From positions 1-26,070 of the IMG/VR virus record IMGVR_UViG_3300028129_000055: 26,070 nt of DNA, one strand, 5' to 3'. A program made the position numbers and the translations under genes. Below the pieces are notes generated by a model that did no database searches, was not told the origin of the DNA, and worked only from the letters and a program-made list of their open reading frames with translations. Source of the stretch: a virus. The number at the start of each line of letters is the position of its first letter. Position 1 is the first letter of the stretch. Below are positions 12,423-16,513 of this stretch, piece by piece.

Positions 12423-12940
12423 AACTCTAAAGCTTTAGATTGTACGTTAGTTAGTGCAAACTTGTCTATTAGTTTGTCTTTCGTAATCTTGCCTTCTTGT
12501 ACTGCAATAAGTGCGTCTGCAAAACGTTTAGTGTTTAACTTTTCTTTCTTAACTACTTTTACTTGTTCGCCAGCTGCGTCTGTGTCTTTGTCTGTGACTA
12601 ATCCCAAGCAGCTTGAAATACAGTAGCGACGAAAATAACTCACGCCACTACCGAAACTTTGATAGTCATTCATATTTTTAAGATTTACTTGCGGAATAAG
12701 TGTGTTTGATTCTAATGTTTCACCGCTTTCTACGTGAAAGATAATAGTGTTTAAATAGTTGTCTTCTTCGTGTGTGTTAATTAGTTGTGTGAATCCTAAT
12801 CCGTGTTTCTGTAGTAGTGGGTTAATCTTGTCGAAGATTGTAGGCAAGTCTGCATAAGAATAGCCATAACCTTTTGTGCCTTTGAATATAGGCTTTACTT
12901 CTTGCTGAAAAGCTGCAAGTGCTTTAAATAAGTGTTTCAT
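12416..12940 (-). CDS. erf: ERF-family single-strand annealing protein
   Basis: This 174-residue protein matches the ERF superfamily of phage annealing recombinases. Visible hallmarks are YSYADLPTIFDKINPLLQKHGL (around residues 27-48, split pattern), then NTIIFHVESGETLES (64-78), then QSFGSGVSYFRRYCISSCLGL (94-114), and the acidic DKDTDAAG. ERF proteins bind single strands and promote annealing, working with an exonuclease, here encoded immediately downstream. A promoter-like site sits 30 nt before the ATG, making this the first gene of a recombination operon. The C-terminal ~45 residues form a helical tail of unknown role. Confidence 0.88.
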   Translation of the reverse strand: MKHLFKALAAFQQEVKPIFKGTKGYGYSYADLPTIFDKINPLLQKHGLGFTQLINTHEEDNYLNTIIFHVESGETLESNTLIPQVNLKNMNDYQSFGSGVSYFRRYCISSCLGLVTDKDTDAAGEQVKVVKKEKLNTKRFADALIAVQEGKITKDKLIDKFALTNVQSKALELC

Positions 12941-14009: not shown

Positions 14010-14299
14010 AATTCTAATTTTAAGTCTTTAATTTCTTCTTTTAGCTTGTCTATTTCGTGTTTATGTTGTGCTATTATAATTTGATTACGTAGGTTCGCTT
14101 TACATTCTAAATAATATTCGTCTTCAAACTGCATAAAAACGGAATGAAAATGCTCTATGTCGTTTGCGCTTTCTTGCATAGAATTTATTAAGTCCGTTCT
14201 GTCTTCGTGTTTTTCACGTAGTTCTTCAAGACTTGACTTAAACTTTATCAAGGTAGTTTTTAGGTTAATCTTGGCTTTAAGTATTTCTAAACTATTCAT
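14006..14299 (-). CDS. Coiled-coil protein, 97 aa
   Basis: This 97-residue protein is nearly all predicted helix: heptad-like runs of L, I and K/E cover residues 1-35 (LEILKAKINLKTTLI) and 72-97 (KHEIDKLKEEIKDLKLEL). It has no membrane segment. It starts by ATGA overlap with the helicase stop and ends by ATGA overlap with the zinc-ribbon start. Position suggests an accessory to the helicase or recombination proteins, but no family is recognisable. Confidence 0.65.
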   Translation of the reverse strand: MNSLEILKAKINLKTTLIKFKSSLEELREKHEDRTDLINSMQESANDIEHFHSVFMQFEDEYYLECKANLRNQIIIAQHKHEIDKLKEEIKDLKLEL

Positions 14300-15195
14300 C
14301 TTTCTTGTGCGTAAATTTTGTTATAAATATTTGGCGCTGAATTTTCTTGCTCATAATACAAAAACTTTTCGACATCGAACCACATAATTAATTGTCCTAT
14401 CTTACCAGCAGAACGTGGCTTTATTTTGTTAAAGTTTATAGTTGCTTGGTTGTAGCCTAAATCTTCACGGTGTACCGTTATCATACACTTGCCACTATTG
14501 AACCATTCAGAACCACCTTTCAAGTCATACGGTGAAGGAACACTTCTTTTTCCGTTTATCTTTTCTGTAAGCTTTGGGTGTATAATCGTGTGTAAGTGTA
14601 GTTCGTTGTCTTCTGCTATTTGGTTTCTATATGGTAGCACTACTTCTAAATATTGTGCGTAACCTCCGTAGTCGTGGTATGGGTGGCTTAAGTCTTTCCA
14701 GCTATCTATACTTGCAGTTTGTAGTCCGTTTTTTTGTTTAAGTTCTACTGCATAGTCATAAAACTGAAACGGCGTCATCTTTGCTTTTACGTCTTTCTTT
14801 GTTAGTATGTGGAAGTGTTCAAATATCCAATCTAAACTGTTTGTTATTTCTCTGTCTTTAATAACATTGTTTTCTAACGGATTAAAGCTTTTACCTGTAA
14901 GCTTGTGTATTAAGTCTGCAACTATTTCTACGTTGTTGCCTACATCTGGAAAGTAAACTAAATGCTTCCAACCATAAAACTTACTTGTGTTTAATAAGCA
15001 TTCCATAAGCACTTGTGTTTTACCACTCATTGGGAAGCCTGTCCAATCTGTGCAGTTGCCTAATTGCATACTGTAGAATTCGTCTAAACCTTGCCAGCCT
15101 AAATACTTGCCTTTTTGATTGTAGTTATCTCTGTGCTTAAATATTTTGTCTATTATGTCGCCTGTTTCTGTTACCTTATAACCTTCTATTCCCAC
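14296..15195 (-). CDS. DnaB/Twinkle-type replicative helicase (SF4), no primase domain
   Basis: This 299-residue RecA-fold ATPase resembles the C-terminal half of T7 gp4 / Twinkle helicases. Walker A is GFPMSGKT (53-60), a hydrophobic strand ending ASID (161-164) supplies Walker B, and HPKL (206-209) matches the HPRK-type motif of this group. A GGSEWFNSG segment (227-235) and KPRSAGKIG (259-267) occupy the DNA-binding and arginine-finger regions. There is no primase or zinc-finger domain, so priming must come from the host or another protein. It overlaps the upstream initiator-like gene by 10 nt. Confidence 0.85.
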   Translation of the reverse strand: MGIEGYKVTETGDIIDKIFKHRDNYNQKGKYLGWQGLDEFYSMQLGNCTDWTGFPMSGKTQVLMECLLNTSKFYGWKHLVYFPDVGNNVEIVADLIHKLTGKSFNPLENNVIKDREITNSLDWIFEHFHILTKKDVKAKMTPFQFYDYAVELKQKNGLQTASIDSWKDLSHPYHDYGGYAQYLEVVLPYRNQIAEDNELHLHTIIHPKLTEKINGKRSVPSPYDLKGGSEWFNSGKCMITVHREDLGYNQATINFNKIKPRSAGKIGQLIMWFDVEKFLYYEQENSAPNIYNKIYAQER

Positions 15196-15758
15196 GGTGC
15201 TTTAAATTTATTAAGTGTTTTTAGTTCGTGTTTTGTTTGTTCTTTCTTTAACCAATTCTTGCAAGTCAAATATAGCGATTTGTATTTCTTATTGTTTTTA
15301 AAGTTCTCTATGCTATCCAAACACGAATCAATGGTCTTCTTTTCGTAGTCAGCTTCTAACTTGTTAAACTCTAAAACAGACATAGACAAATGCGCAAAGC
15401 GCCTATATATATCTTTTTCTTTATCATTATCTTTATCACTATCTCTATCAGTTATGTTTGTTATAGGTTTATAACACTTGTTATCTTTGTTATCTTTTGC
15501 CCAACGTTTTGCCATTCCTTTTTTACCAGCTTCACTTCTTTTTTTACAAGTAGATTCGTATTTACGTAAGTCACGCTTTAGACTTTGTTTTATAGGTTCA
15601 AAACATAAGTCTGTTATTATGTCTTCGGTTTCTGGGTTTAAGTCGTTTACGTACTCTAAAACGTGCTTAAACAACTTACCAGCTTGTTCATCGTTTAACT
15701 TCTTTACCGTATGCAGTAAGTCGCAGTAAAGTAAAAAGCTTTTCTTATTGTCTGCCAT
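15186..15758 (-). CDS. Replication initiator / helicase-loader-like protein (DUF6291-like)
   Basis: This 190-residue protein begins with an N-terminal domain (FLLYCDLLHTVKKL at 8-21, then LFKHVLEYVNDLNP) resembling the DUF6291 N-terminus found in phage replication proteins. It continues with a basic linker, KRSEAGKKGMAKRWA (about 88-102), and an acidic Asp/Lys repeat tract. The C-terminus is helical with several tryptophans (CKNWLKKEQ). Encoded immediately before the helicase and after a DnaA-like gene, it most likely opens the origin or loads the helicase. The family name is from memory of patterns. Confidence 0.65.
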   Translation of the reverse strand: MADNKKSFLLYCDLLHTVKKLNDEQAGKLFKHVLEYVNDLNPETEDIITDLCFEPIKQSLKRDLRKYESTCKKRSEAGKKGMAKRWAKDNKDNKCYKPITNITDRDSDKDNDKEKDIYRRFAHLSMSVLEFNKLEADYEKKTIDSCLDSIENFKNNKKYKSLYLTCKNWLKKEQTKHELKTLNKFKAPWE

Positions 15759-15794
15759 AAATTATTGTAAAAAAAAAGTGCAGCGCTTTCGGTG

Positions 15795-15843
15795 GGTAGG
15801 AACACTTACTAACGCAACACTTAAAAATTTTGATTGTCCTACC
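15795..15843. repeat. Inverted repeat with internal direct repeats in the replication leader
   Basis: Arms GGTAGGA (15795-15801) and TCCTACC (15837-15843) are exact inverted repeats flanking 35 bases that hold a direct repeat of AACACTTA (15801-15808 and 15816-15823). It sits in the ~100-base gap between the DnaA-like and initiator-like genes, downstream of a promoter-like site. It could be an operator, an RNA structure or part of an origin. Confidence 0.5.
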
Positions 15844-15850
15844 AACATTG

Positions 15851-15858
15851 CAAAGTTA
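15851..15858 (-). promoter_or_regulatory. TAnnTTTG -7-like site ahead of the replication genes
   Basis: The minus strand reads TAACTTTG, matching the -7 consensus, at the edge of the intergenic gap, 93 nt before the initiator-like ATG. No TTG -33 element is obvious. Such octamers occur by chance in AT-rich DNA, so support is only positional. Confidence 0.35.
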
Positions 15859-15859
15859 A

Positions 15860-16231
15860 TTAAATTCCGTACATACCATTATCTAAACGTCTTTTTATTA
15901 TGTTTAAGTCAGCTATTGTAGTAGCTTTTCTTACGTCTTTTTCTAAATTGTAACGTTCTTTCGGTACAGGTATTTCACCGAATATTTGTTCGTATTCTTC
16001 TATGTCTACTTTTAGCATTGCATCTTTAGACTTTGTTAAGTCGTTGTAACGTTTTATGCCGTGTATAATCGTAGCGTGATTTCTATTAAAAAACGAACCT
16101 ATCTTTTGAAAGTTCATTCCGTGTTTACGCATAATAGTATACATATACATACGTTTGTTTATTAAAGGTGAAAAACGTTCTTTACTGGCAAGTCCGTCTT
16201 TTTCTATTACCTCTTTAATCAAGTCCTCCAT
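15860..16231 (-). CDS. DnaA domain IV-like DNA-binding protein
   Basis: This 123-residue protein carries GSFFNRNHATIIHGIKRY at residues 45-62. It closely follows the DnaA domain IV signature (the HTTVLHA-type recognition helix that reads DnaA boxes), preceded by helices including MRKHGMNFQKI that fit the domain IV HTH. No Walker motifs, AAA+ domain or room for domains I-III exist, so it is a stand-alone binding domain plus a ~60-residue helical C-terminus. It likely recognises a phage origin or competes with host DnaA; both are inference. It begins the replication gene block. No canonical DnaA box was noticed nearby. Confidence 0.72.
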   Translation of the reverse strand: MEDLIKEVIEKDGLASKERFSPLINKRMYMYTIMRKHGMNFQKIGSFFNRNHATIIHGIKRYNDLTKSKDAMLKVDIEEYEQIFGEIPVPKERYNLEKDVRKATTIADLNIIKRRLDNGMYGI

Positions 16232-16267
16232 ATATCCAAGTTATAACTGCACAATAAATTATTTCTA

Positions 16268-16513
16268 TTAGTCGCATATTTCTACTTTAATTATTAAGCC
16301 TTTCCACAAGTTAAAGGCGTTTATTGCATCGTGTCTATTGTATGCCTTTATGTATTTAATTGCATAGCTTACAGGTGCGCTTGTGTCGCTTCCTTTGTAA
16401 GTCTTGTAAGTAATTCTATAAGTGTTTAACATTTCTTCACGTTTTAGTAAATAGTCAAAGTATAGACTATCGTTGAAATTGTCCCAAAATTCAAGTTTAA
16501 ATGGTTCTATCAT
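16268..16513 (-). CDS. Hypothetical protein, 81 aa
   Basis: I do not recognise this protein. It is mixed alpha/beta with many aromatics (FKLEFWDNFNDSLYFDYLL, then YRITYKTYKGSD) and no membrane segment or Cys motif. Its ATG lies 2 nt after the stop of the 55-aa gene, in a run of small early genes that share transcription direction and leader style. The pattern VSYAIKYIKAYNRHDAINAF suggests a small compact domain. Confidence 0.55.
   Translation of the reverse strand: MIEPFKLEFWDNFNDSLYFDYLLKREEMLNTYRITYKTYKGSDTSAPVSYAIKYIKAYNRHDAINAFNLWKGLIIKVEICD

Follow-up and report, generated by a model that had tools for sequence, protein, structure and literature searches.

The window is a contig of 26,070 bases from an IMG/VR virus record and belongs to a marine Flavobacteria-type phage, whose terminase has its nearest relatives in Flavobacterium phages (56% identity). 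All identified genes in the part of the contig around dnaA-C lie on the minus strand, in the order dnaA-C, DUF6291, RecA/DnaB-like ATPase and then NinG, ERF and exonuclease genes. An earlier note on this DNA had placed dnaA-C just before initiator-like and helicase genes, and Pfam and PHROG profiles give the same arrangement, with a DUF6291 protein followed by a helicase-like ATPase. The DUF6291 gene, which lies directly 3′ of the leader RNA described below, encodes a protein that weakly matches primosomal protein and replisome organizer in PHROG; its structure prediction reached a pLDDT of 53, so we make no claim about its fold. The protein-coding features are:

16215–16277, minus strand: conserved small ORF of 20 codons, MRLIEIIYCAVITWIYGGLD, which overlaps the start codon of dnaA-C (sequence; pattern in relatives)
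15860–16231, minus strand: dnaA-C gene, encoding a 123-aa stand-alone DnaA domain IV protein, P0001 (PF08299 over cut-off; AlphaFold model; PDB matches)
16046–16081, minus strand: residues 51–62 of that protein, NHATIIHGIKRY, start of the recognition helix (H434- and T436-aligned residues near-invariant)
15186–15758, minus strand: DUF6291 protein, initiator or helicase-loader-like (Pfam PF19808, E 6e-26)
14296–15195, minus strand: RecA/DnaB-like ATPase, helicase-like (PHROG DNA primase/helicase, E 1e-12)

A stand-alone DnaA domain IV protein

The ORF at 15860–16231 is read from the minus strand; many stops interrupt the plus strand there. Its product matches Pfam PF08299 (Bac_DnaA_C) with 35.4 bits (E 1e-8), against a curated cut-off of 31.5 bits, and of the NCBIfam profile for full-length DnaA it hits just the last ~75 positions (381–456 of 462). 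Judged by sequence, this likeness to DnaA is far beyond chance. No domain was found besides DnaA domain IV and, as the protein is only 123 aa long, it lacks the AAA+ ATPase part of a full DnaA, in keeping with a profile match that is C-terminal only. An AlphaFold2 model built from 13 viral relatives (A3) had a mean pLDDT of 86. The top three Foldseek matches to this model were all DnaA domain IV, 1j1v and 3pvp among them, and the best PDB matches by VIA-align were 3pvp (Z 10.3) and 1j1v (Z 10.0), followed by two more DnaA entries at 7.8 and the first non-DnaA fold at Z 6.9. A PDB search by sequence alone, with only this one protein as query, gave phycobilisome matches that are put down to chance. 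Profile, fold and residue evidence together establish that the ORF encodes a stand-alone DnaA domain IV. This is what the earlier note had proposed, including the missing AAA+ module, and the structure prediction that it had named as a check gave the DnaA domain IV fold.

The same note had described a motif resembling the DnaA recognition helix at residues 51–62, where NHATIIHGIKRY is indeed found. When 107 viral relatives were aligned with E. coli DnaA and Bacteroidota DnaA, the equivalents of E. coli R399, R407, H434 and T436, the DNA-contacting residues in 1J1V, proved to be kept in 102/106, 105/106, 107/107 and 104/107 viral relatives, respectively. The remainder of the protein varies widely, and the reading residues are therefore under strong constraint. 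The column of T435 holds mostly A or S in the viral relatives, as in Bacteroidota host DnaA, and residue 51 varies (N, D or H) where DnaA has D433. The recognition-helix sequence is close to that of Bacteroidota DnaA, with NHAT in the phage protein and DHAT (DHATVLHA) in host Flavobacteriaceae DnaA. The phage protein thus shares with DnaA domain IV (PF08299; 1J1V, 3PVP) its fold, its helix-turn-helix and the invariant Arg/His/Thr reading residues, but has an extra conserved C-terminal helix pair (residues 96–117); unlike DnaA, it is without domains I–III, and so without an ATPase or a helicase-interaction domain, and its gene is located in a phage replication operon.

The small ORF overlapping the dnaA-C start was found in 64 of 89 relatives, with the peptide pattern kept in most of those 64. 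The peptide is hydrophobic, and its conserved pattern suggests either that translation is coupled here or that the ORF encodes a very small membrane protein.

The viral relatives of the protein are all stand-alone, at 81–189 aa, so the lack of AAA+ characterizes the family as a whole and does not reflect a truncated gene. Close relatives came from viral contigs only, and genome scans gave distant protein matches. The stand-alone domain is not unique: annotated examples already exist in phage isolates, as “DnaA protein” in Cellulophaga phages phi13:2 (gp011) and phi19:3 (gp013) and Flavobacterium phage tooticki6-1 (gp026), with more in Olleya phage Harreka_1 and the pelagiphages Pelagibacter HTVC204P and Skadi. 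Like the protein studied here, these annotated phage proteins are short, with a PF08299 domain and no AAA+, but identity is low where compared, roughly 25–40% over the matched part. DnaA genes have been reported for Polaribacter phages P12002L/S and for HTVC010P-type phages (PMC4615864, PMC6811365). A search of open-licence papers found DnaA genes annotated in phages, but no functional study of a stand-alone domain IV. Two Bacteroidota genomes carry short stand-alone DnaA-domain-IV ORFs besides full DnaA (G008:C78:3682-3906 and G011:C197:5429-6008, the latter with two such ORFs in tandem), which are possibly prophage or mobile-element genes.

Replication synteny and DnaA boxes

In more divergent phages, the genes after dnaA-C encode a DnaD-like helicase loader and an ATPase (L187, L194, L196, L203), a BT4734-type primase-helicase (e.g. 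L191, L193, L209) or another primase-type protein (L216), and DUF6291 is again found downstream in L197 and L207. Cellulophaga phages phi13:2 and phi19:3 resemble the window in having a DUF6291 homologue and then a replication gene, here a COG1484 replication protein, downstream of the “DnaA protein” gene. In some relatives (e.g. L161–L163) the adjoining gene is of exonuclease type, with no obvious replication gene there. What speaks most strongly for a role linked to replication is that dnaA-C adjoins at least three unrelated replication modules. This repeated synteny supports the link to replication that had earlier been drawn from gene placement, and makes a replication-associated DNA-binding role likely on the basis of gene neighbourhood. 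It also fits a regulatory role, including that of a transcription regulator, and does not tell such a role from a direct one in initiation.

One function suggested in the earlier note was that the protein marks the phage’s own origin through DnaA boxes. The window and 60–92 relatives were scanned for such boxes and compared with dinucleotide shuffles and permuted words. In the window, in 92 relatives and near the dnaA-C gene, canonical DnaA boxes showed no enrichment and formed no clusters, and no cluster was found in the gap at 15759–15859; origin-marking by way of the phage’s own DnaA boxes is therefore unsupported. Nor was an array of the kind expected at the own origin of a full DnaA found in the window or the relatives; the contig may be incomplete. 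Depletion of TTWTNCACA was suggested by the shuffles but not by the permuted-word control, and we claim neither enrichment nor depletion. An iteron reading of the TAAGTGTT repeats, which number 10 where 3.9 would be expected, was rejected: several copies coincide with start codons, and the two in the gap belong to RNA helices and do not persist in other variants. GC skew showed no turning point at the gap element.

The leader RNA of the 15759–15859 gap

The gap between dnaA-C and DUF6291 shows strong conservation, also where the proteins on either side are different, and its structured RNA element is present in 68 distinct viral loci. The earlier note had pointed to this gap as a possible binding site; the conserved object there is a leader RNA that has a promoter of its own, and no DnaA-box cluster was found. 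Its parts, on the minus strand throughout, are:

15851–15858, minus strand: TAACTTTG, flavobacterial sigmaA −7 box (TAnnTTTG) of the leader RNA (box 6–8 nt before P1 in 64/65 leaders)
15769–15846, minus strand: leader RNA (alignment A5 and pair counts)
15843–15837 with 15801–15795, minus strand: P1, the pseudoknot (alignment A5, pair counts)
15822–15813 with 15785–15776, minus strand: P2 (alignment A5, pair counts)
15805–15803 with 15794–15792, minus strand: P3 (alignment A5, pair counts)
15777–15769, minus strand: U-tract (alignment A5)

Since the sigmaA box of flavobacteria extends from −12 to −5 (PMC9723704), the leader is predicted to start at 15846. From the TAnnTTTG box and the start, the leader continues with the P1 5′ strand GGUAGGA, a conserved ACAAUCAAA, the P2 5′ strand, UUAGUA and P3, followed by the P1 3′ strand UCCUACC (within the hairpin loop), YGAAAG, the P2 3′ strand and the U-tract, which ends 10 nt before the DUF6291 AUG. 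As P1 crosses P2 and P3, the fold is a pseudoknot. Covariation was counted over 25 distinct sequences, the divergent copies L169 and L172, whose loop was misaligned by MAFFT, being excluded. Standard pairs fill 97% of the pair cells, and 14 of 20 pairs show compensatory change on both sides, a level of covariation reached by none of 500 shuffles and lost when the partner strand was slid. P1 occurs as GGUAGGA, GGUCGGA, GGCGGGA, GGUGGGA, GCUGGGA and GUUGGGG, with a perfect complement in 64/65 leaders, and a U-run of at least 6 is present in 62/65. By eye, the UUAGUA/GAAAG internal loop would resemble a loop-E (sarcin-ricin) motif.

As read from the sequence, the element has the make-up of a terminator-type leader: a promoter, a conserved structure and a terminator-like hairpin with U-tract before an ORF. 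In its own promoter, its conserved pseudoknotted fold and the terminator-like hairpin with U-tract just before the ORF it resembles attenuators and terminator riboswitches, the structured leader RNAs with intrinsic terminators. Unlike known leaders of that type, it has no Rfam match, was virus-only in the searches made and precedes phage replication genes. Among 4227 Rfam families, none matched the window or the divergent leader copies at gathering score; the leader pattern had no match in bacterial genome contigs, nor did a covariance model, run with no positive control, in 397 genomes, all from one Flavobacteriaceae genome’s family. Inside the ERF gene of the window (12617–12675, minus strand) the model has a weak match (19 bits, E 0.017), which is probably chance. 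It is the leader RNA, and not the dnaA-C protein, that appears to be the new part.

In all 66 leader loci that could be judged, either because the gene was detectable or because the upstream sequence exceeded 2.4 kb, dnaA-C lies upstream on the same strand; ~50 of these loci had been fetched by the RNA pattern alone. The two are adjacent in 39, ~350 nt apart in 6 and 1.5–1.9 kb apart in 21. Longer gaps hold variable cargo, comprising C5 and MT-A70 methyltransferases and small ORFs. In L118, L166, L031, L011, L321, L345 and others, each methyltransferase is followed by a different small ORF of ~120–170 aa, which may encode a nuclease, and the slot looks like one for swapped modification or restriction-modification genes. 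Linkage of dnaA-C and leader could also arise by shared descent in one phage lineage, with no functional tie.

Downstream, the leader precedes DUF6378 instead of DUF6291 in L164 and L172, dnaA-C remaining adjacent, and in L169 and L172 the fold is kept without a U-tract, which leaves room for uses other than termination. Seven DUF6291 genes without the motif were searched for a leader of the same topology (promoter, P1/P2 pseudoknot, U-tract); it was found in front of three, those of L197, phi13:2 and phi19:3, but not of the remaining four. Among 864 control ORFs the pseudoknot pattern occurred before 29, and with the promoter box right before it in 3, and the recurrence is suggestive only. 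The matching leaders (L359:2380-2500 in phi13:2, L362 in phi19:3 and L197:5380-5540) are unrelated in sequence (CTCTCACAA/TTGTGAGAG; CCTTCGAC/GTCGAAGG).

Roles of the protein and the leader

A cis-acting leader fits the own promoter, the position before the start codon, the two downstream families (DUF6291 and DUF6378) and the terminator-like P2 with U-tract. It would control transcription read-through or start-codon access, and its inferred function is that of an attenuator, a riboregulator or a priming transcript; the DUF6291 protein, the DnaA-C protein or a nucleotide are candidates for its ligand or regulator. On balance we lean slightly towards a new, virus-only family of pseudoknotted leaders that meters replication-initiation genes and is co-inherited as a module with a stand-alone DnaA DNA-binding domain, an architecture that may recur with unrelated sequence before DUF6291 in other flavophages (phi13:2, phi19:3, L197).

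For the protein, our preferred reading, on which we are evenly balanced, is a free-standing DNA-binding domain IV working in the phage’s own replication-initiation module. Its recognition helix would enter the major groove of a DnaA-box-like site, with an arginine reaching into the minor groove. Without AAA+ the protein could not melt DNA itself, which points to a sequence-specific landing or regulatory protein that would direct the loader encoded downstream (DUF6291 or DnaD-like) and the ATPase. The downstream genes of this phage group begin with the structured leader, with its own promoter and pseudoknotted terminator-like hairpin, which most likely sets the amount of initiator by attenuation or by limiting start-codon access.

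DnaA domain IV is able to bind DNA by itself, and the protein might instead regulate early or replication genes as a helix-turn-helix repressor or activator, with the TAnnTTTG promoter as one conceivable target and without any direct part in initiation. Of the 66 loci with dnaA-C, 39 have that promoter at the stop codon of the gene, and no origin-like DnaA-box array was found; we nevertheless think this role unlikely, as the flank upstream of the promoter is unconserved beyond the box, leaving no operator visible, and dnaA-C precedes replication genes even where there is no leader. Competition with host DnaA for boxes at oriC and DnaA-regulated promoters, shutting down host initiation, would agree with recognition residues that match host Bacteroidota DnaA, including the A/S in place of E. 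coli T435, and with canonical boxes not being concentrated in the phage genome. The variable residue 51 speaks against such a take-over, and the steady placement beside unrelated phage replication modules is better explained by a role in phage replication; we hold host take-over to be improbable. It is similarly doubtful, if compatible with the preferred replication-module reading, that the gap element is itself the phage origin, where a promoter-driven structured RNA would prime the leading strand (R-loop type) with the domain IV or DUF6291 protein acting there. Transcript-primed origins are established in T4 and T7 and give this idea a precedent, and a promoter, a structured transcript and a T/A-rich tract directly before an initiator gene, tightly linked to dnaA-C, would suit it. 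GC skew does not turn at the element, though, and the covariation demands RNA (or single-strand) structure that priming does not require; the two loci with structure but no U-tract, before DUF6378, fit a cis-regulatory leader better.

Stand-alone DnaA DNA-binding domains thus recur in Bacteroidota and SAR11 phages, so far, as far as we found, as annotation only. Their conserved operon context gives a concrete hypothesis, that of a phage replication factor, for which the isolates phi13:2 and phi19:3 offer test systems. The leader is a strongly supported new structured RNA before phage replication genes, and could show how these phages time or limit the replication of their genomes.
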